64,000 nt of DNA from Asparagopsis taxiformis (lineage: Eukaryota > Rhodophyta > Florideophyceae > Bonnemaisoniales > Bonnemaisoniaceae): assembly GCA_030407315.1 (NCBI GenBank), contig JALQPE010002623.1:1-64000 (forward strand), given 5' to 3'. Below are positions 6,221 to 38,990 of the stretch, one piece after another. The translations under genes were made by a program, and so were the position numbers. Each line of letters opens with the position of its first letter. Within the stretch, counting starts at the first letter, position 1. The notes under the pieces are model-generated. The model had not been told where the DNA came from and did not search any database. It was given only the letters and a program-made list of their open reading frames with translations.

Positions 6221-6225
6221 ATCCC
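6221..6225. repeat. Target-site duplication (left), ATCCC
   Basis: The five bases ATCCC lie immediately left of the left LTR and are repeated immediately right of the right LTR (13255-13259). Five-base duplications are usual for gypsy integrases, so both element ends are intact. Confidence 0.85.
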
Positions 6226-6457
6226 TGTTGTACGTGGCCACGGGACGGGGAGTGAAACGGTGTAAAATGTAGAAACGTAGATAGATTGATTTTTACTAAG
6301 TCTAGCTTATCTCCCTCTAGGTTATTCCGACCGCTGGGAGCTGTATTTAGCTTCCTACGGTTGGACGACTGGAAACTTCCAGACGTCTACCTAACCCTAA
6401 ATTAAAATTCTGGTAGAAATTACCTGTAGAATTTTTCTTGTAAAAGTCATTTCCACA
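6226..6457 (-). repeat. 3' LTR of element B
   Basis: It starts TGTTGTACG and ends TTTCCACA on the plus strand (TG...CA ends). It is 232 bp and looks identical base for base to 13023-13254. It contains a small palindrome, CTGGAAACTTCCAG, near its middle. Confidence 0.93.
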
Positions 6458-6521: not shown

Positions 6522-6528
6522 TATAAAA
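6522..6528 (+). promoter_or_regulatory. TATA box for the antisense H3-tail gene
   Basis: TATAAAAG lies in a GC-rich context 269 bp upstream of the ATG at 6791, on the strand of the accessory gene and outside the LTR. It suggests an internal promoter separate from the LTR promoter. Confidence 0.5.
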
Positions 6529-6588: not shown

Positions 6589-6655
6589 TTACTGTAAGCA
6601 CCGTAAGTACTTTACAGTAGTTGGTAGCTTACTGTAGTGCGATATCTTACAGTAA
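6589..6655 (+). promoter_or_regulatory. Four alternating TTACTGTAA / TTACAGTAA motifs in the leader
   Basis: Copies lie at 6589-6597 (TTACTGTAA), 6612-6620 (TTACAGTAG), 6629-6637 (TTACTGTAG) and 6647-6655 (TTACAGTAA), alternating in orientation at 17-23 bp spacing. They sit between the TATA box and the start codon. They could be protein-binding sites or could fold as RNA, since the first and last are exact reverse complements. The function is unknown. Confidence 0.5.
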
Positions 6656-6790: not shown

Positions 6791-8251
6791 ATGGCCAAGA
6801 CGAAACAGACCGCAAAGAAGTCGACTGGGGGGACTGCCCCTCGGCAGGAGCTAGCTGCTCGGGCGGCGCGGATTCCCAGACGAGACCCTCCCGCGGCTCC
6901 TGGCACCTACCGTCGCGAGGGCGGCCAGGAGGTACGCTATCGCCCCGGGGAAGCCGTCCCCGCGCGGGCCAACGAGGTTAACTTCGACGACAAATCCCAT
7001 CGGGGAATTCGTCAGAACCTCTTCCGTTGGTTCGGACGTGAAGACGTCCAGAACATCCGCCGCTCCTCCGACCACCGTGGTCGTTTCGTCGTCGACTTTG
7101 GCCGAAATCGTCGCGATCCGTGCCAAGTGACGGCCAGGGAACTAGAGTTCCTCTTCGGGCCTCAGATCGTCGAATTCGCCTCCGATCCGGCCATCTCCAT
7201 CCTTACCGCGGAGATGGCTTGTCGTCTCGGTCTCACTGAATCCCACGGTGACACCGAGAAGTACGCCGAATGCCCCGACGACACCGATTGGATCATCGAG
7301 AAGATCTGGTTGTCGAAGGGAGGTGAGAACGGCGAACTGGAAGGCTGCTTCTATGCCTCCGCCGAAGGGGAGCGAACCGGCCATCGAATCGATCTGTATA
7401 CCATGGTTTTCCGTCAGGTCTCCGAACCGGCGGAGCGCGACGCGGCACTCCAGGAGCAGGATAACCCCTCTCCTGTGACCAGAGGGAATGGTCAACCCTC
7501 GCGGGTGAGTTTAATAGCCAGTATCGACGCTTGGTGTTACAAGAAACCTGGGAAGAAGAAACGAGTCAATGTCGCCATGGCTCGGGTGCCCTCCCTCGAA
7601 GCCCCCCCATTCTTCGTGGGGACTCCTCGGAACCGCGTGGTGGTACCTGTGCAGGACTTCACCAACAACTGCCTGCGTGCCGCGGCCGCCAATGGGATCG
7701 CTCTCGTGTGCGATTTTAACACGGCCGATAGGTTTTTCCGTCGGGAGCTGGCTCGGGACGAAGAAGAACGCCTTGTTCGAGGTTATTATACTAGTGTCGT
7801 GGACTTTGGTTCTGTCTCGAAGGCCATCGATGATCGTGCTCCTTCAACGGTGACTCTGCCCCGGGTGGCGATCCCCCATTTCGACCTAGGAGCCCCAGAT
7901 TCGCGCTCTAGGCAATGGGCGTGGTTACGGGAGAAACTTTCGAGGGAGCCGGACGTATACGTGGTGCAGGTTTGGAGTCGAGATGGCCTGAAACACGCCA
8001 TATGTATCGACTCTCGTACCTGGCCTGGTCTCATCTACGACTCCTCTGAAGCCTTTGTGATGAGTCTAGAGCCTCGGGCATTCTTCTTATGTTGTAGCAC
8101 CAGTAAGTCGTCGGATTTCTCCTCCTTCAACGATCTTCGACGCGTCCAACGGGAGGGTTCGAATCCAGAGGAGAAGCGTGCTAAGCGACAGCGCATGAGG
8201 AAGCGCGAGAAGGTTCGCAAAGCGAAGATCGACGGTGAGGGGTTGTCTTAG
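6791..8251 (+). CDS. Antisense retrotransposon protein with histone H3 tail and papain-like fold
   Basis: The protein has 486 residues. After Met it reads AKTKQTAKKSTGGTAPRQEL, matching histone H3 residues 1-26 at 19 of 26 positions. K4, K9, S10, T11, R17 and R26 are kept; R2 and R8 are Lys, K14 is Thr and K27 is Ile. RYRPG (residues 48-52) matches H3 40-44 after an 8-residue insertion. No histone-fold core follows. The C-terminal half holds NNCLRAAAANGI (Cys294) with Gln288 six residues before it, KHAICID (His402) and LIYDSSE (Asp417). That order and spacing fit a papain/C39-like cysteine peptidase (inference). The last 40 residues are strongly basic, NLS-like. The start has G at -3 and +4. 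The protein probably acts in the nucleus on H3-tail readers or writers; the activity is unproven. Confidence 0.85.
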   Translation: MAKTKQTAKKSTGGTAPRQELAARAARIPRRDPPAAPGTYRREGGQEVRYRPGEAVPARANEVNFDDKSHRGIRQNLFRWFGREDVQNIRRSSDHRGRFVVDFGRNRRDPCQVTARELEFLFGPQIVEFASDPAISILTAEMACRLGLTESHGDTEKYAECPDDTDWIIEKIWLSKGGENGELEGCFYASAEGERTGHRIDLYTMVFRQVSEPAERDAALQEQDNPSPVTRGNGQPSRVSLIASIDAWCYKKPGKKKRVNVAMARVPSLEAPPFFVGTPRNRVVVPVQDFTNNCLRAAAANGIALVCDFNTADRFFRRELARDEEERLVRGYYTSVVDFGSVSKAIDDRAPSTVTLPRVAIPHFDLGAPDSRSRQWAWLREKLSREPDVYVVQVWSRDGLKHAICIDSRTWPGLIYDSSEAFVMSLEPRAFFLCCSTSKSSDFSSFNDLRRVQREGSNPEEKRAKRQRMRKREKVRKAKIDGEGLS

Positions 8252-8417: not shown

Positions 8418-11400
8418 TTAATGCAGTAGATGTAGTGGACGCCTACGGAAGAGAAGTAGACGTCTCGCATGGATGGGGCGACGTGATACCTTCGCTTGGT
8501 CGGAAGCGAGTAGGTATCGGGGGTGGCTAGCTTGGATGACCTTAAACGGTCCGTACCACTTGGTTTCGAACAACGACAACTTCGTCGCTCCGAAAGCTTT
8601 CCCTTTCGCCACAAGGACCTCGTCGCCTACCTCGAACCGACGTTCTGGTAGATGAGCTCGAGCTTGGGTATTGCGTAGATGCATTTCTACCCTGCTCGCT
8701 CGTTGCGACTGGAGAGCTAACATCTCAAACAGTCGGGATTGAGGGTCCAGCGGACGGTCCAGAAGCGGTGACGGGTCGTGGGCGACTACCCTTGGTACCA
8801 CTCCGTACATCAGTTCGAAGGGTGAGGTGCCGCCTGTCATGCAACGACGGCGGTAACCGTAGAGCACGTGCGGGAGTAGGATGTCCCATTCGACCGAGTC
8901 CCTGCCTTTAACTTTGGCTAAGGACCTCTTGATGGTCCCTACCATTCGCTCGGCTCGCCCATTAGACATGGGGGAGTACTCAAGCACGGTCTTCCAATCG
9001 ATCCCGTTGCTCTTCATGAAACTCGCGAGTGTCGCAGCTGTGAAACACCCCGCATTGTCGGATACAATGGTAGTTGGGGGGCCGAACGAGTAGATGATCT
9101 CATCCTTCACGAAATTGAGTACGACATCCGCGGTACTAGCTGCGGTGGCCCTGGCGATAGGCCAGCCAGTGAGGTGTTCCACAGCGATGAGAAGGAATCG
9201 GTTACCTTTGGCCGTGCGCGGGAGCGGCCCCGCAAAGTCGATGGAAAACGTGTGGAAAAGGCCTGTCAACGGCTGACTCAGGGTAGTCCGATAGCGGGGT
9301 ACCGGTTTATTCTTCTGACACCCCTCACAACTCCGAACGTAGTCGTGAATGTCCTTGCCCATACGCGGCCACCAGTAACGTTCCACAATAAACTGGCGGG
9401 TCGAGGCAGCGTCCCAATGACCGATGTTGTCGTGGAACATTTGCAGGATCTTGATTCGGAGCGGAATCGGTGCGACTACCTTGGGTCCCAACGCGGTGCG
9501 GCGAAAGAGCTGGTCTTCCCAGACTAAGAAATCCTTGGAACTCCGTCGAACCTTTTGTCGAGCTAGGCCCTCTACTTCGGGTTCAGCTCCACCCCGTAAG
9601 TATTGGAACACTGTGACTAGGTCAGGTTCTATGCGGAGGGCTTCTGGAATAGCAAGCAGGGCGAGGTCGCCCTCATCTTCTCCTGACCCCGGAGCGGTAT
9701 GGGTTTGTTCTAGACGGGACAGAAAGTCTGCAGCGGAGTTCTGTTTTCCCGGCCTGAACGATATGACGAAGTCGTATTCCGCGAGGAAGTCGAGCCAACG
9801 GGCAAGTCGCCCGTGTATATCTTTCTTCTGGAATGCGTATTGCAACGCTTGGTGATCCGTCATCAACTTGAAGGGCTGGGTGGACAGAAGGTAGAGTCGG
9901 AATTTCTTCAGTGCAAAGATAACTGCTAGGGCTTCCCGTTCGCATGCCGAATATTTTCTTTCAGCCGTATTCATCGTCCTACTCGCGAATTGAATAGGAT
10001 GAATACGCCCGTCTTCCTTCTTCTGCGCTAGTACAGCTCCGACGGATACGGAGGAGGCATCTGTCTCGACTAAGAAGGGAGTATCGAAGTCAGGGAAGGA
10101 AAGGACGGGAGCCGAAGTTAGTTTTTCCTTCAGCGTCCCGAAGGCTTGATTCATCTCCTCTGTCCATTCGAAGGAACGTCCAGAAGAGGTATATGGGAAT
10201 AGAGAAGCCGAGATGTCAGCAAACCCCTTAATGAACCGGCGATAGTAGCCCGCCAAACCGAGGAAGCTGCGGAGCTCGGAAGCGGTTTGCGGCGGAGCTA
10301 CATCTCTAATGGCAGAAATCTTGGCGGGGTCTACTGACACCCCATCGTGGCTAACGATGTGACCAAGCAACTCGACTTTAGGTTGAGCGAAGAAGCATTT
10401 GACGACCTTCAGCTTCAAACCCCTCTGACTTAGGGACTCGAAAAGGATACGAAGGTGGGAAACGTGTTCTCCCATGTTTTTAGAGAATACCACAACATCG
10501 TCGAGATACGCTCGGACGAATGGTAGATCCTTGACCATCTCATCCATCATCCTCTGGAAGGTGGACGGGGCATTCATTAGTCCAAACGGCATAACTTCGA
10601 ACTTGTAGGTACCGTAACGGGTGACGAAAGTCGTCATCTCCTTGCAAGCGGTATCCATTCGAATCTGCCAATACCCAGAGAAGAGATCGAGAGTGGTGAA
10701 GAGGGAATTTCCTCCCAATTCATCGAAAATCTCTTCGATCCTGGGTAAGGGCCAACGATCGGGTTTGATCTTCCGATTCAGGATGCGGTAGTCGACGCAG
10801 AAACGAGGTTTCCCGTCCTTCTTCGTAGCAATGACCACCGGGAAGGACCATGCTGATGAGGCCGGGGTGATGATTCCCGCTTCCAGCATGCGATCGATTT
10901 CGGATCGTACTACCTCGTTGTGTTTCGGCGACAACCGACGAGGTTGGTGGTAGACAGGGGTGTCGTCTTCCAGCTCAAAAGAGTGTTTAACAGGGACGTC
11001 GGCTTTCCTGAGATCGTGAAAGGACCAAGCTACGATTCCGTAGTCCTTCAACGACTCCGATATAACTCGTCTATCCGAGGGTGATAGATGCACGAGTTTT
11101 TCTTCGATGAGCTTGTCATGCTCTTCGGTCTCAGAGAGGTCGCTCTCCTCTTCGACCGCTAATTGCGGCTTGGCGAAATCAACGTGGGCGACAATTAGCG
11201 TACCTTCGTCTTCTTCGCCTGAAGAAGTCGTCGAGGCTCCTTCATCGGTGCTGAGAGACGTGAAGTCTTCGCTTTCACTACCACCCTGAGGAAGGAAGTG
11301 GAGGCCGTTATCGGGTTCTAGCCCAATCCGCGCCGATTCTTCGCCGAGTTGTATCTCAACGACTCGACTCCCAATATCCAGTTTAGCCTGTAGATCTTCC

Positions 11401-11756
11401 ATGGCCGGTAAGCCGATGATGAGGCCGATAGGTGCCTTTTCAATGGTGAGGAAATCCATGGAAGCTGTGAGGTTTCCAAAGGTTATGGGCACATCTTTGA
11501 CACGGCCAATGCAGTTGGCGCTCGACCCATCTGCGACCGTAATCCTCTGCTTGGTACGCTTCGGCAGGAGGCACAACTGACGGGCGAGATCAGCAGAGAT
11601 GATATTGGGTATAGCCCCAGTATCCAGGAGCGCGCGAATCTCTCGACCATAGATACGAACTGGCGCGACCATCAGAACTCGTTTGTTCTGAACGTTTAAG
11701 GCTGGCGCAGCCTTACTCGGTCGGCGATTCTTAAGAGGCGAGAAGAGACGTCGCAT
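8418..11756 (-). CDS. pol: Gypsy Pol polyprotein (protease, RT, RNase H, integrase)
   Basis: An open frame of 1112 codons from its first Met. In order: retropepsin (ALLDTGAIPNII, residues about 42-53); RT with FCVDYRILNRK, LFTTLDLFSGYWQIRMD, MPFGLMNAPSTFQRMM and the YLDD catalytic box; RNase H with LVETDASSVSVGAVLAQ; integrase with an HHCC zinc finger (GHWDAASTRQF to CEGCQ) and a D-D-E core (SIDFAGP, VSDNAGC, NGRAERM); then a YGPF motif. All catalytic residues I can recognise are present. The frame is open upstream of this Met into gag (through ELANASTGLTFGQLLRGD), so it is probably made by a +1 (or -2) shift from Gag rather than from its own AUG. It ends 166 bp from the convergent accessory gene. 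Confidence 0.93.
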   Translation of the reverse strand: MRRLFSPLKNRRPSKAAPALNVQNKRVLMVAPVRIYGREIRALLDTGAIPNIISADLARQLCLLPKRTKQRITVADGSSANCIGRVKDVPITFGNLTASMDFLTIEKAPIGLIIGLPAMEDLQAKLDIGSRVVEIQLGEESARIGLEPDNGLHFLPQGGSESEDFTSLSTDEGASTTSSGEEDEGTLIVAHVDFAKPQLAVEEESDLSETEEHDKLIEEKLVHLSPSDRRVISESLKDYGIVAWSFHDLRKADVPVKHSFELEDDTPVYHQPRRLSPKHNEVVRSEIDRMLEAGIITPASSAWSFPVVIATKKDGKPRFCVDYRILNRKIKPDRWPLPRIEEIFDELGGNSLFTTLDLFSGYWQIRMDTACKEMTTFVTRYGTYKFEVMPFGLMNAPSTFQRMMDEMVKDLPFVRAYLDDVVVFSKNMGEHVSHLRILFESLSQRGLKLKVVKCFFAQPKVELLGHIVSHDGVSVDPAKISAIRDVAPPQTASELRSFLGLAGYYRRFIKGFADISASLFPYTSSGRSFEWTEEMNQAFGTLKEKLTSAPVLSFPDFDTPFLVETDASSVSVGAVLAQKKEDGRIHPIQFASRTMNTAERKYSACEREALAVIFALKKFRLYLLSTQPFKLMTDHQALQYAFQKKDIHGRLARWLDFLAEYDFVISFRPGKQNSAADFLSRLEQTHTAPGSGEDEGDLALLAIPEALRIEPDLVTVFQYLRGGAEPEVEGLARQKVRRSSKDFLVWEDQLFRRTALGPKVVAPIPLRIKILQMFHDNIGHWDAASTRQFIVERYWWPRMGKDIHDYVRSCEGCQKNKPVPRYRTTLSQPLTGLFHTFSIDFAGPLPRTAKGNRFLLIAVEHLTGWPIARATAASTADVVLNFVKDEIIYSFGPPTTIVSDNAGCFTAATLASFMKSNGIDWKTVLEYSPMSNGRAERMVGTIKRSLAKVKGRDSVEWDILLPHVLYGYRRRCMTGGTSPFELMYGVVPRVVAHDPSPLLDRPLDPQSRLFEMLALQSQRASRVEMHLRNTQARAHLPERRFEVGDEVLVAKGKAFGATKLSLFETKWYGPFKVIQASHPRYLLASDQAKVSRRPIHARRLLLFRRRPLHLLH

Positions 11757-11820
11757 CTCTTTGGCGGCTTCGGCGGCGTCTCCACGAAGGAGTTGGCCGA
11801 AAGTGAGGCCTGTGGACGCA

Positions 11821-13023
11821 TTAGCGAGCTCTCCAACAACGTCGTACTTTCCGACGTGATCTTGAAGAACCTTCTTGGAAGTGTTCTTTTTCTTCGCCTT
11901 GCGGTTTTTTCTTCCCTCGGATGGGAAGAGGCTCCAGTTGCAAGGGAGGTAGGATACGACCAGGCGTTGGGTGCATCAGGTTTTCAGTGTTGATCCCCTC
12001 AGCTCGACGTTGCTTCGGAACCGCTTCTCCCGTCATGGTACGTTTCGTAGTACCGACAACATCGGGAGTTGTGGTTACAACGGTAACTTGATTCGAACGG
12101 GAGGAATCGTCCCTGCCGGTAGAGGGGCTCCTCTGCTTCTCCGTGCCCTTCTGGCGACTATAGCAAGTCGCGACAGAATGACCCAGACGACCACATTTCG
12201 AGCAACGGGTGTCTCGGTGAGGGTTTTCGGGGCAGGAGTTAGCCCCATGTCCCGGTTTCTGACAGAAGGAGCAAGGACGAGGCGTTTCGCGCCTATCCGA
12301 TGAGGATGCTCCTGTCTGCTTGCGGACGATGAGGGAGAGCTCAGCGAGTTGCTCCGCTAGCTTGTCCACCTTGTTCTCCACCTGTGACGTTCGTGCGTCG
12401 GGACGGTTCAGGACCCGCTTAGATCCAAAGGTGGAATCGAGCGGGTGCTGTTTCCCTGTATCGTGATATGGGACGGAAGAGAGGAAGTCCTTGCGACCCT
12501 GGTCGAAGTCACGCACCACTTTCTTGAGGTCGGTGTAGTGCGTGGCACCGCGATAGATCGCGAACTGGGCCAGTTCTGGGAAGCGGGAGAGTGCATTCCT
12601 CAGAAGGCCAAACTTAGCTTCATCATTGAAAGATGCCTTTTCGAACAGACGATCCATAGTTTTGAGCGAGCCGACAAGATCCTCGGGATCCAGTACCGCG
12701 TTGATGGCACTGCGGATATCGTCACTCGGCTCTGTCTTGACTCCGAAACGATCGATGAAGGCCTTCTTGACGAGGGCGTAGTTCATAGCCTCTTCCGTCA
12801 GCGCTCCATCCTTGGCGAACGTTTCGTAGTAGAAGTCGAATGCCTCGCCCTCGAGGTGGGCGAGGAGTTCGAGAGCTTTCTCCTCGTCGGACTTGCCGCG
12901 CATAGCGACGTTCTCGAAGAAGAAGAAGAACTTCTTGACGTCGGAAGAGAGAGAGCCGTCCATCTTAGCAGTGGATGGACCCGCCTGCTGGTTCGGGTCG
13001 TCGGCCCTCCACAAGAGTACCAT
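11821..13023 (-). CDS. gag: Gypsy Gag with two CCHC zinc knuckles
   Basis: The protein has 400 residues from the ATG formed by the last LTR base and the first two bases of the primer-binding site. An N-terminal Ty3-type capsid region (roughly residues 25-190, including FDFYYETFAKDG and KKAFIDRFG) is followed by a coiled-coil-like stretch. Two zinc knuckles follow, CSFCQKPGHGANSC and CSKCGRLGHSVATC, both CX2CX4HX4C, which package RNA. The C-terminus is basic and Ser-rich and overlaps the pol frame, which lies one base further on. A run of six A (minus strand, 11910-11905) in the overlap is a candidate slip site. An in-frame GTG further upstream lies inside the LTR, so the ATG is preferred. Confidence 0.88.
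   Translation of the reverse strand: MVLLWRADDPNQQAGPSTAKMDGSLSSDVKKFFFFFENVAMRGKSDEEKALELLAHLEGEAFDFYYETFAKDGALTEEAMNYALVKKAFIDRFGVKTEPSDDIRSAINAVLDPEDLVGSLKTMDRLFEKASFNDEAKFGLLRNALSRFPELAQFAIYRGATHYTDLKKVVRDFDQGRKDFLSSVPYHDTGKQHPLDSTFGSKRVLNRPDARTSQVENKVDKLAEQLAELSLIVRKQTGASSSDRRETPRPCSFCQKPGHGANSCPENPHRDTRCSKCGRLGHSVATCYSRQKGTEKQRSPSTGRDDSSRSNQVTVVTTTPDVVGTTKRTMTGEAVPKQRRAEGINTENLMHPTPGRILPPLQLEPLPIRGKKKPQGEEKEHFQEGSSRSRRKVRRCWRAR
11905..11910 (-). promoter_or_regulatory. Candidate frameshift site between gag and pol
   Basis: The minus strand carries A6 (AAGAAAAAACCG) within the stretch where gag and pol frames are both open. Pol is in the +1 frame relative to Gag. Other A-rich codons nearby could equally serve, so the position is tentative. 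Confidence 0.25.
13009..13022 (-). other. Primer-binding site of element B
   Basis: TGGTACTCTTGTGG on the minus strand begins directly at the LTR end, with the TGG that pairs with a tRNA CCA tail. The tRNA used was not identified. The first two bases are also part of the gag start codon. Confidence 0.6.
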
Positions 13024-13254
13024 GTTGTACGTGGCCACGGGACGGGGAGTGAAACGGTGTAAAATGTAGAAACGTAGATAGATTGATTTTTACTAAGTCT
13101 AGCTTATCTCCCTCTAGGTTATTCCGACCGCTGGGAGCTGTATTTAGCTTCCTACGGTTGGACGACTGGAAACTTCCAGACGTCTACCTAACCCTAAATT
13201 AAAATTCTGGTAGAAATTACCTGTAGAATTTTTCTTGTAAAAGTCATTTCCACA
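13023..13254 (-). repeat. 5' LTR of element B
   Basis: It is 232 bp and looks identical to 6226-6457. It is the promoter LTR for gag-pol on the minus strand. No strong TATAAA box is seen in it. Confidence 0.93.
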
Positions 13255-13803
13255 ATCCCATGCTCATTTGCGGAGATCCGAAAACTCCGGCTGGTGATAC
13301 GCCCAACTTCTTCTACCTCATACCCGTTATGACGGATATGAGGTATAATTGAACACCCTCGTCAACTCATCACCTTTCCAAAACATCTGCAATAACTGTG
13401 AAAGATTCTGAAGGCGCATTACACACGCTAGAAGATATGTGATTTCCGAGATCCACTTCTGCATCCAAAATCACGTGAAGCCGCACCCATTCGGCGCTTT
13501 TCACACTTGCGTATGGTGCAGATCTCCATCCTCAACAAGCAGCAGCGACACGACGACATCTCAGAAGCAAGCAATTTTTATTTTGAAGCAGCATGGCAGG
13601 AACCTAGCCAGGTTACCGGGTTTTTGCGGCCCTTCTCCGCCTTTACATGGCACAGATATGTAACAGGCTTCGATCAAGTTCAGCGGCGGATAGTGTATCC
13701 GTGGTCTCGACGTCATAGGCGTTCCACGGGTGCACAGTTTATATCAATGCATCTGAATGGTGCGTCAATCGTGCCAGGTTCAGTATCTGACTCGCGGTCT
13801 GGG
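13255..13803 (+). other. Right target duplication and upstream region of the decarboxylase-like gene
   Basis: ATCCC at 13255-13259 is the second target duplication. A near-perfect inverted repeat (arms ACCTCATACCCGT and ACGGATATGAGGT, about 13317-13346) follows. The frame of the next gene is open upstream to 13507, but that extension looks non-coding. No other gene is seen. Confidence 0.5.
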
Positions 13804-36246: not shown

Positions 36247-37266
36247 ATGAAGCCGTGCATGTACATCATCATCGCACTTGCTGTGCTTGTGCACGTCGTT
36301 CGCGCAGACGTCGACCAGGACGACATCGATAGAACCTTCGAGCTTGAAATCGGCGATCGCGCATTGTGTGGATTCCAGATCGAAATTGACGATGAGTCGC
36401 TTACACTAGACGCGTCCGATATCAAGGTTGAAAATGACGATTGTGACGGCGGTACCCTCACGCTCTCCCAAAACCCCAAGGATGCCACATCTGCCGCCAG
36501 GTTTCTGATTTCCAAAGTAGAGGCCGGAAATATCCTCGCCGGCTCCATCGACGACCAACTCACATGCAATGACTTTTCGCTTGCCTCCGGTTCTAATTTC
36601 ATCTTCTTCGAACCCGAGGACGACTTCACCGTCAAATGGGCCGATTTATTCAACGGCGAAAGCCCGCTGGAAAACGCCACCAATGACGACGATTTCGAAT
36701 TCGACGACGGCACCACCTACCTAATTGTCAACGAAGACTGTCTCTACAGAGCGACCTCCATCACCGATTCCGTCTGCTTCCCGTCCTCCGCAACCGTGCA
36801 GCTCAAATCCGGCGCCCGCATCCGCATGGACCAGCTGTCAATCGGCGACCAAGTGCTCGTCAAACGGGGCGTGTACTCGCCGATTATCGCGTGGACACAT
36901 CGCGATGCGCGCGCGTCCAACGCCCGCTACACAAAGATTGAAACGGCGCACGGCCAGAAACTCGTCATAACCGACAGTCACTACGTGTATGCAGACATGC
37001 AGATGCGTCAAGCTGCTTCCGTGCGAGTCGGTATGACAATGGAGACCGGTGAGGGTGATGATACCGTTGTGACTAAAGTTTCACGTGTGCATGCGCGTGG
37101 ATTGTACAATCCGCAGACAGCACACGGTGATATAGTGGTGAATGGGCTTGTCAGTTCCACGTATACTAGCACCGTGAAACCGGAGATCGCACATGCATTG
37201 CTTACGCCGATTCGAGCAGTGGTGAAGGCCGGCTTGTGCGCCGCGTCTGTATTATCGGGTAAGTAA
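36247..37266 (+). CDS. Secreted Hint-domain (hedgehog/intein-like) protein 1
   Basis: The protein has 339 residues. Signal peptide MKPCMYIIIALAVLVHVVRA; then an acidic N-terminal domain (about 21-178) with four Cys shared with the neighbour paralogue (ALCGF, DDCDG, LTCND, NEDCLY), likely two disulfides; then a Hint domain from Cys179 or close by (SVCFPSSATVQLKSGARIRM, LSIGDQVLV, YSPIIAWTHRD). The TxxH block is VITDSHYVYAD, followed by GDIVVNGLVSSTY. The Hint fold catalyses self-cleavage at the bond before its first Cys, as in hedgehog. The N-terminal domain is not a hedgehog signalling domain and I do not recognise it. It may be released and modified extracellularly (inference). A tandem paralogue lies downstream. 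Confidence 0.88.
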   Translation: MKPCMYIIIALAVLVHVVRADVDQDDIDRTFELEIGDRALCGFQIEIDDESLTLDASDIKVENDDCDGGTLTLSQNPKDATSAARFLISKVEAGNILAGSIDDQLTCNDFSLASGSNFIFFEPEDDFTVKWADLFNGESPLENATNDDDFEFDDGTTYLIVNEDCLYRATSITDSVCFPSSATVQLKSGARIRMDQLSIGDQVLVKRGVYSPIIAWTHRDARASNARYTKIETAHGQKLVITDSHYVYADMQMRQAASVRVGMTMETGEGDDTVVTKVSRVHARGLYNPQTAHGDIVVNGLVSSTYTSTVKPEIAHALLTPIRAVVKAGLCAASVLSGK

Positions 37267-37958
37267 CTGTTTGGACGGACATATCATATGCGGTGAGTAT
37301 TAGACCTCTCATTTGACATTGACAAGATGGTAAACTTTAAAGTACAAGAAAGACACACACTAGTTTAGATCAGTTGAGGTGATGGGGTGCATAGCCTAGG
37401 AGCAATAGGTGTGGCAATGCGATACGTTTGTCAGACTTGACGGGCTGTCAAGATGATGCTCGCACAGAAACGGGTCCACCAATGAACTGATCAACTTTGA
37501 TTGCCATTGGTACGGGAACTTTGCATATGCGTCTGACTGAATTACTGCGCTGGAAAAAGTGTTCAAACACCCAACAGCTGACCTTCTCTCTTCTCCAGTC
37601 ATAAGCTTATGGCACTCGTTACTGGACATAACCGTCCACCTCGTCCCAATCATGTTTCTAGCAGACTCATTTCCACACGCTCGCTTACGTTTCCACATTC
37701 CAGATGTGTCACTGTTCAGTATCTACCGCGACACCATTTCTGCCAGATCCATACAATTCACTTCACGAATAACATTGCTGTGCCATATAACATAAATGAT
37801 CGCCTCAGCCTCGCTGATGTGGAATGCTAACTGCATCCAACTCCACCTCCCGACACGGACCGCAGTGCCCCATCCCTGCGCATAAAACAAATACTCCTCC
37901 TCAATCACACGCTTCATCCGCAACTCCCGCGTTCATCCCATCTCGCATCACGCCCAAA
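37267..37958. other. Intergenic region between Hint paralogues
   Basis: No gene is seen. The frame of the second Hint gene is open back to 37824, but the extension lacks hydrophobic leader features. Confidence 0.4.
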
Positions 37959-38990
37959 ATGTCGCCCGCAGCACTGGCCCTCGCTCTCGTCCTAGCGCTC
38001 TTCGTGTCCCATTCGCGCGCCGACTTTGACCGCGACGAAATCGACAACGAATTCAGACTGCGCATCGGAAGCGTGTCCGAGTGCGGAGAAATACTACGTT
38101 TCCGTCGCGAATCGCTCTTGCTACGCGCGGAAGATATTCGCATCGACGGCGACGATTGTACCGGCGATGGAGTTCTTCGTCTCACCGAAAACCCGCGTGA
38201 TAACCCGTCACCAGCCGTGCGATTCCTTCTCAACGAAAATGACTCGGGTGACTTTTTCGCGGGAAGACTCTCCTCCAGGATCACTTGTGGCTCTCTCACG
38301 GTACCGGGACGCTCAGAATTTATTTTCCTCGAACCCGACGATGACTTTCGCGTCAGATGGTCGACGTTTTTCATGACACGAGGCGGCATTCAGGCAGCAG
38401 ATAGGGACAATCGGTTCGAATTTGATGAGGATACAAACTATGTTATCGTTCGTGACGATTGTCTGTTTTCAAGTACCAATATCGGTGACGTCTGCTTCCC
38501 GGCCGCAGCGACTGCGCAGCTTTCATCTGGTCGCGTCGTGCGCATGGATGAACTGCAAACCGGTGACAACGTTTTGGTGGCTCCTGGTATTTTTTCTCCC
38601 ATCATCGGTTGGACTCATCGCGATTCAACCCCCATGTCTGCCATCTATACACGCTTAGACACAGATTCTGGTCACTCACTGACGACGACCGATGGTCACT
38701 ATGTCTACGCTGATGGAAAGATGATGAAAGCGGAAGACGTTCGTGTCGGTATGGTCATGAAAACTGGTACTGGATCTGACACTGCCGTTGTAGACGTGAG
38801 ACGTGTAGCCGATAATGGTCTTTACAATCCACAGACGATCCACGGTGACATTGTTGTGGACGGTCTGTTGAGTACAACATATACAAAGACTGTGCCACCA
38901 ATGACAGCTCATGCAATGTTGGCACCAATCCGTGCTGCTTTCAAGGCTGTTTGTCAGTTGATACCGTCTGCAATCTCTGAAGAATTATGA
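37959..38990 (+). CDS. Secreted Hint-domain protein 2 (tandem paralogue)
   Basis: The protein has 343 residues from the ATG at 37959 (AAAATG context), which starts the signal peptide MSPAALALALVLALFVSHSR. It has the same plan as its neighbour: an acidic four-Cys N-terminal domain (SECGE, DDCTG, ITCGS, DDCLF), then Hint from GDVCFPAAATAQLSSGRVVR with the TxxH block TTTDGHYVYAD and the closing GLYNPQTIHGDIVVDGLLST. Both end with a short helical tail (AHAMLAPIRAAFKAV). The Hint halves are clearly more alike than the N-terminal domains, suggesting faster change of the released part. No cholesterol-transfer region is obvious, so the acceptor after cleavage is unknown. Confidence 0.88.
   Translation: MSPAALALALVLALFVSHSRADFDRDEIDNEFRLRIGSVSECGEILRFRRESLLLRAEDIRIDGDDCTGDGVLRLTENPRDNPSPAVRFLLNENDSGDFFAGRLSSRITCGSLTVPGRSEFIFLEPDDDFRVRWSTFFMTRGGIQAADRDNRFEFDEDTNYVIVRDDCLFSSTNIGDVCFPAAATAQLSSGRVVRMDELQTGDNVLVAPGIFSPIIGWTHRDSTPMSAIYTRLDTDSGHSLTTTDGHYVYADGKMMKAEDVRVGMVMKTGTGSDTAVVDVRRVADNGLYNPQTIHGDIVVDGLLSTTYTKTVPPMTAHAMLAPIRAAFKAVCQLIPSAISEEL

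Follow-up and report, generated by a model that had tools for sequence, protein, structure and literature searches.

What does a retrotransposon gain from a gene that begins like histone H3? The question is raised by a 64,000-nucleotide stretch of the red alga Asparagopsis taxiformis (positions 1-64,000 of contig JALQPE010002623.1, assembly GCA_030407315.1; on contig C2495 of the 141-Mb assembly searched; hereafter the window), whose minus strand holds a Ty3/gypsy long terminal repeat (LTR) retrotransposon with an extra gene, ORF3. We found that ORF3 opens with a copy of the H3 tail, and comparison of its copies indicates that this tail is old and selected at the protein level. We tentatively read the product of this antisense accessory gene, at somewhat under an even chance, as an H3-tail mimic that would dock on host H3-tail binders independently of lysine marks. 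The features that carry the argument are the following, the window's own family of elements being called family A.

6791..8251, plus strand: ORF3, 486 amino acids, on the strand opposite gag-pol, in the interval from pol to the 3' LTR
6791..6871, plus strand: histone H3 tail copy, Met followed by H3 positions 1-26, 19/26 identical
6935..6949, plus strand: RYRPG, equal to H3 positions 40-44, ORF3 residues 49-53, in family A only

Resemblance of ORF3 to histone H3

A preliminary description, made from the sequence of the window, had reported a gapless 19-of-26 match to H3 directly after the start Met, and this proved exact: codons 2-27 of ORF3 align with H3 1-26 without a gap. Histone H3 was the best chain for ORF3 in a phmmer search of the PDB (E-value 2.7e-7). 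A profile of the family matched H3 with an E-value of 1.5e-8, with positions 1-31 as the best stretch, and the best stretches on H3 chains ended no further than position 51 among the matches listed (60 of 135). ORF3 matched 0 Pfam families, and thus neither the histone fold (PF00125) after the tail nor TRP28 (PF04195), the domain of the Retand lineage. The second H3 segment, RYRPG, follows in order as described, but the end given for it (6946) omitted the final G. Of 36 family A loci, 29 keep it whole, and the other seven, mostly older copies, have it altered; 11/11 copies of a second family, B, introduced below, lack it. After shuffling ORF3 residues 28-80, RYRPG arose in 130 of 200,000 shuffles and any 5-mer of host H3 27-55 in 358.

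Proteins often begin with basic stretches of low complexity, and a basic, Ala-rich N-terminus might have come to resemble H3 by chance or convergence. We rejected this explanation, which the E-value above, the ungapped alignment from residue 1 and the retention of the same H3 residues by families that differ in nucleotide sequence make extremely improbable.

Copies, families and relatives

A tblastn search of the genome with ORF3 returned 93 pieces. Seven of these, spread over seven contigs and counting the window's own, are full length at 100% identity. We examined 36 family A loci and built the residue table from 30 copies, among which 13 tail DNAs are distinct. L009, L017, L019, L059 and L062 were omitted because frameshifts affect the tail or its surroundings, and L065 because the start of its tail is absent; L030 covers no tail. 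For family B, a second gypsy family, all 11 loci were used (10 distinct tail DNAs). Its ORF3 is 36-45% identical to that of family A, its gag 45-47% and its pol 53-56% over 1009-1073 residues; the figure for pol is 55% in C1764, 53% in C436 (merely 35% over the first 190 residues) and 56% in C1656. A recognisable H3 tail heads 11/11 of the family B copies examined (for example MARTNQTAKRSTGGRAPRKDLAAAAAR). The antisense retrotransposon gene with an H3 tail that had been described from one locus thus recurs in further copies and also in a second family, and is under the constraint set out below. A chimera confined to one copy, or a misassembly with a host H3 gene, was rejected on the seven full-length copies at 100% and the second family.

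The antisense placement was established in the window, where the LTRs are delimited, and in two family B loci with LTRs not delimited (C1764 and C436), where reading through the flanks past ORF3 placed it antisense after a gypsy pol; on many contigs, pol and ORF3 matches adjoin on opposite strands. A third family, C (four loci), has a pol about 54% identical, and no match to ORF3 was found within about 3.1 kb after pol at 4/4 loci, which is compatible both with a gain of ORF3 before the split of A and B and with a loss in C. Pol identities (A-B 0.53-0.56, A-C 0.54, B-C 0.51-0.55) are too even to settle whether A and B are sisters.

Among 5.8 billion public proteins, with about 8,000 candidates scored per search, the sole full relative was P0001 (94%, ENA). 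Another ENA protein, P0002 (143 amino acids, three contigs, the longest of 1171 bp), carries a tail resembling that of H3, MAKTKQTARRSTGGKAARKQLAARAA, which starts at residue 14; its body is unrelated to ORF3, and position 9 of its tail is again Arg, the usual residue of family B.

Selection on the tail

When the window copy was compared with three family B copies, the tail was identical at 18-19 of 26 positions and the rest at 159/418 to 172/436 (38-39%; Fisher p 0.0005-0.003), the tail being the best-conserved 26-residue stretch between the families. We then pooled copies of both families (six of A and four of B) and computed the proportions of nonsynonymous (pN) and synonymous (pS) differences between families. 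The tail had a pN of 0.206, two parts of the body 0.427 and 0.457, and the linker after the tail 0.613. The pS was 0.72-0.79 in tail, body and linker (0.775 in the tail), the last 16 codons being too few to judge; synonymous sites are therefore saturated between the families and the tail is old. Between two family B subgroups, the ratio of nonsynonymous to synonymous substitution rates (Ka/Ks) in the tail was 0.05-0.07 in three pairs, drawn from four copies of which two hold stops; one such pair differed at 10/24 synonymous and 2/54 nonsynonymous sites (p 7e-5). Because the tail is the best-conserved stretch between families and has this low Ka/Ks across the family B subgroups, we conclude from these comparisons that it is selected at the protein level. 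An N-terminal H3 sequence is thus selectively kept in a non-histone protein, as in an H3 mimic. Constraint imposed by a gene on the opposite strand was rejected, the sense strand over ORF3 having 8-12 stops per frame and a longest open stretch of 122 codons.

Residues retained in the tail

Over the 23 distinct tails (13 from family A and 10 from family B), S10, G13, R17 and A25 are present in 23/23, T3 and T6 in 22/23 and T11 in 21/23. The usual residue is that of H3 in both families at A1, T3, Q5, T6, A7, S10, T11, G12 and G13, and also at A15, P16, R17, L20, A21, A24, A25 and R26. The lysines behave differently. Position 4 is Lys in 13/13 family A tails and Asn in 10/10 family B tails, and position 9 is Lys in 12/13 and Arg in 9/10, respectively. 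Position 14 is Thr in family A and Arg in family B, position 18 Gln or Arg in family A and Lys in family B, and position 23 Arg in 11/13 family A tails and Ala in 10/10 family B tails. None of the five lysines (0/5) is common to H3 and both families, against 17/21 of the other positions (one-sided p 0.0019, a value weakened by the test having been framed after the data were seen and by the shared descent of the copies). Any mimicry would therefore not depend on lysine marks in the two families alike.

It had been proposed that the tail could be modified at K4 and K9 like a histone, a proposal that would fall if these residues were under no constraint. Family A agrees with the proposal and family B does not. 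As an explanation of the gene, a methyl-lysine decoy would use methylated K4 and K9 to lure away silencing factors with chromodomains or PHD domains, or to bring the element to them. The near-invariance of these two lysines in family A fits this, and the genome is rich in chromodomains: of 1826 candidates, 150 were scored and all 150 passed the cut-off. In family B, however, Asn4 and Arg9 prevail in a tail that is nonetheless constrained, and position 8, Arg in H3, is mostly Lys in families A and B alike, which removes the ARKS context of HP1 and G9a. We regard this decoy as distinctly unlikely.

The tail might instead be a nuclear import signal, or a general basic tether, borrowed from H3. 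Both tails are strongly basic though the basic positions shift, and Kap123 uses the H3 tail as an import signal, reading K14 and K23 (available portion of PMC5677370); in work cited there, K14A and K23A reduce binding and K14R has a minor effect. These two sites are changed in both families, as given above, which counts against Kap123-like import. A conserved basic stretch is moreover already present at the ORF3 C-terminus, and charge alone would not retain T3, Q5, T6, S10, T11, the GG pair and APR. We consider this explanation unlikely.

Possible origin of the tail in the host genome

Contig C171 of the host bears two H3 genes without introns; another H3 gene, on C578, is interrupted by one intron, which lies within codon 44. 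The likeness of family A to H3 ends at RYRPG, the same junction as the end of exon 1 of the C578 gene. Because the similarity stops at codon 44, we infer that the tail was captured from exon 1 of an intron-bearing H3 gene; against this stand the lack of RYRPG in family B and the possibility that RYRPG arose by chance. Compared with the C578 gene, the tail is saturated at synonymous sites (pS 0.72-1.04), so the capture would be old, and recent gene conversion from a host H3 gene was rejected on the same ground.

Two side observations concern the host genes. A divergent gene resembling that of H3, whose product has a long, basic N-terminus and also HRFRPGTRALMEIRKYQ, lies at G000:C2491:57334-57772 (L039, L043) and is possibly a centromeric H3. 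The genome has 13 phycobilisome-linker matches, one of them on C578, the contig with the H3 gene, in keeping with a red algal source.

Structure and predicted expression of ORF3

The following features of the window bear on how ORF3 would be expressed and on what its body may be.

6522..6528, plus strand: TATAAAA facing ORF3, 269 bp upstream of the ATG
6589..6655, no strand assigned: clustered TTACTGTAA / TTACAGTA repeats, after the TATA box and before the ATG, retained with changes in family A
7538..8194, plus strand: C-terminal half of ORF3, residues 250-468, with Cys294, His402, Asp417, Cys435 and the basic stretch EEKRAKRQR...

In family A, ORF3 could start no more than 3 codons ahead of the Met given above (an open frame of 489 for 486 amino acids). 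Of 10 family A copies examined, seven have TATAAA, six of them at -269 and one at -260; of the remaining three, two are cut short at this site and one (L058) reads TATAATA. It was not found within 330 bp before the ATG in 4/4 family B copies examined. The palindromic TTACTGTAA-like repeats at 6589-6655 are candidate protein-binding sites.

The C-terminal half retains Cys294 in 41/44, His402 in 39/42, Asp417 in 39/42 and Cys435 in 39/41 of the copies covering them. This half may be a papain-like or Ulp1-like cysteine peptidase, which the tail would steer to ubiquitin or SUMO conjugates on chromatin. The four residues are well kept; AF2 models of this half are poor and, as stated above, Pfam offers no family for it. 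We give this explanation a slim chance.

Proposed action and points against it

If ORF3 is a lysine-independent H3-tail mimic, the TATA box next to the LTR would drive its expression, its Met would be removed to expose Ala1, the conserved basic C-terminal stretch would bring it into the nucleus, and the tail would there bind host H3-tail partners. The first candidates would be mitotic H3 kinases and their readers, because the phospho-acceptors T3, S10 and T11 are kept, or readers of a free N-terminus. In favour of such binding, PHD domains gave 10 matches in the host genome. The benefit to the element is a guess: it may be tethered to mitotic chromatin, or silencing factors may be occupied.

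A related but unlikely possibility is a lysine-independent decoy derived from H3 exon 1, which would keep host H3 kinases and readers of the tail engaged and might even serve as bait for the integrase chromodomains of competing chromoviruses. Such a tail would mirror the chromodomain from the ligand side. Many chromodomain matches lie in open frames of 1,100-1,634 amino acids, the size of gag-pol (e.g., on C2679, C644 and C707), and chromodomain-bearing elements and the tail-bearing element therefore probably share one nucleus, judging from frame length and domain content.

Several observations weigh against a selected mimic. Stops and frameshifts break most family B copies, including those behind the Ka/Ks of 0.05-0.07. 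The lead of the tail in conservation between families is narrow, residues 136-161 reaching 17/26. Among six intact family A copies, pN/pS is 0.42 in the tail and 0.18-0.20 in the body, on small counts, and within the family B subgroups the tail Ka/Ks is 0.28 and 0.90, on few changes each. One family B copy (L048) has an upstream in-frame Met, and its N-terminus may be longer. Family A has Lys in place of R2, a change that would be unfavourable for readers needing Arg2, such as WDR5. The weak constraint in intact family A copies would also suit a passive relic of gene capture, in which the tail is the mere translated start of a selected body, as would the free divergence of the linker directly after it; the tail nevertheless beats the body in conservation between families and is constrained across the family B subgroups, and we hold such a relic to be improbable.

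Architecture of the element and neighbouring genes

The remaining parts of the element in the window are the following.

6221..6225, no strand assigned: target site duplication ATCCC, left copy
6226..6457, minus strand: 3' LTR, 232 bp, TGTTG...CCACA, identical to 13023-13254
8418..11756, minus strand: pol, with aspartic protease, reverse transcriptase, RNase H and integrase (Pfam)
11821..13038, minus strand: gag, with sub-threshold zinc-knuckle matches
13023..13254, minus strand: 5' LTR
13255..13259, no strand assigned: target site duplication ATCCC, right copy

The paired LTRs with their target site duplication, and the Pfam order of protease, reverse transcriptase, RNase H and integrase along a pol of 1112 amino acids, place the element in Ty3/gypsy, and its identical LTRs flanked by ATCCC show that it inserted recently. 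As had been described, pol carries no chromodomain: no Chromo match was obtained up to an E-value of 1 (Pfam), which sets the element apart from chromoviruses. At 11700-11900, the gag and pol frames differ; seven other copies have a single open frame of 1556 amino acids with a pol 100% identical, and a frameshift at this point in the window copy is probable. Elsewhere in the window, two neighbouring genes (36247-37266 and 37824-38990) have C-terminal parts that resemble Hint (hedgehog/intein-type) domains, a label given by eye.

Relation to known systems and significance

Histone mimics such as influenza NS1 and the SNAG domains of SNAIL and GFI1 bear H3-like motifs of some 4-10 residues. In them, as in ORF3, the end of a foreign protein resembles the start of H3, but the alignment of ORF3 runs over 26 positions ungapped. 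Chromoviruses, too, are gypsy elements that engage the H3 tail system, and are probably abundant in this same genome, going by the count of chromodomains and the frame lengths; they carry a reader of the tail, whereas the ORF3 family carries the tail and has no chromodomain match.

Antisense accessory genes of gypsy elements are known from plants, their function being given as unknown in the available portions of PMC7264820 and PMC11963269. According to the accessible parts of this literature, the genes termed aORF-3R (Grande gene23, RIRE2, Retand and PvRetro13) lie in most copies, like ORF3, antisense between pol and the 3' LTR. Maize Grande gene23 is described as an antisense gene with its own promoter and a nuclear protein (available part of PMC7264820), and 57/104 antisense open reading frames in the Retand paper bear the TRP28 domain (main text of PMC11963269). 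The word "histone" has 0 occurrences in that main text, whereas ORF3 bears an H3 tail and has no Pfam match.

Uptake and amplification of H3 by mobile elements have been reported for hAT DNA transposons of Dothideomycete fungi (Pyrenophora H3L and Pseudocercospora; available portions of PMC3538342 and PMC6710886). These hold H3-like proteins or gene copies with a histone domain, whereas ORF3 has a bare tail on a foreign accessory protein, constrained in two families; the copies of Pseudocercospora are all inactivated except the original, as stated in the accessible text of PMC6710886. Within the open-access full-text literature, covered through titles and the starts of abstracts and with subscription papers not searchable, we found no H3 tail heading a retrotransposon accessory protein. 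The earlier statement that no LTR retrotransposon with this arrangement has been described holds within that literature, alongside the published hAT carriers of H3.

The function of gypsy antisense accessory genes is a standing question, and the H3 tail gives ORF3 a recognisable address for partners, which can therefore be fished with a 26-residue peptide. The two families also amount to a natural experiment, in which selection retained the non-lysine residues and left the lysines free to change. If the mimic reading is true, mobile elements would contest chromatin using both readers and decoys of one tail.
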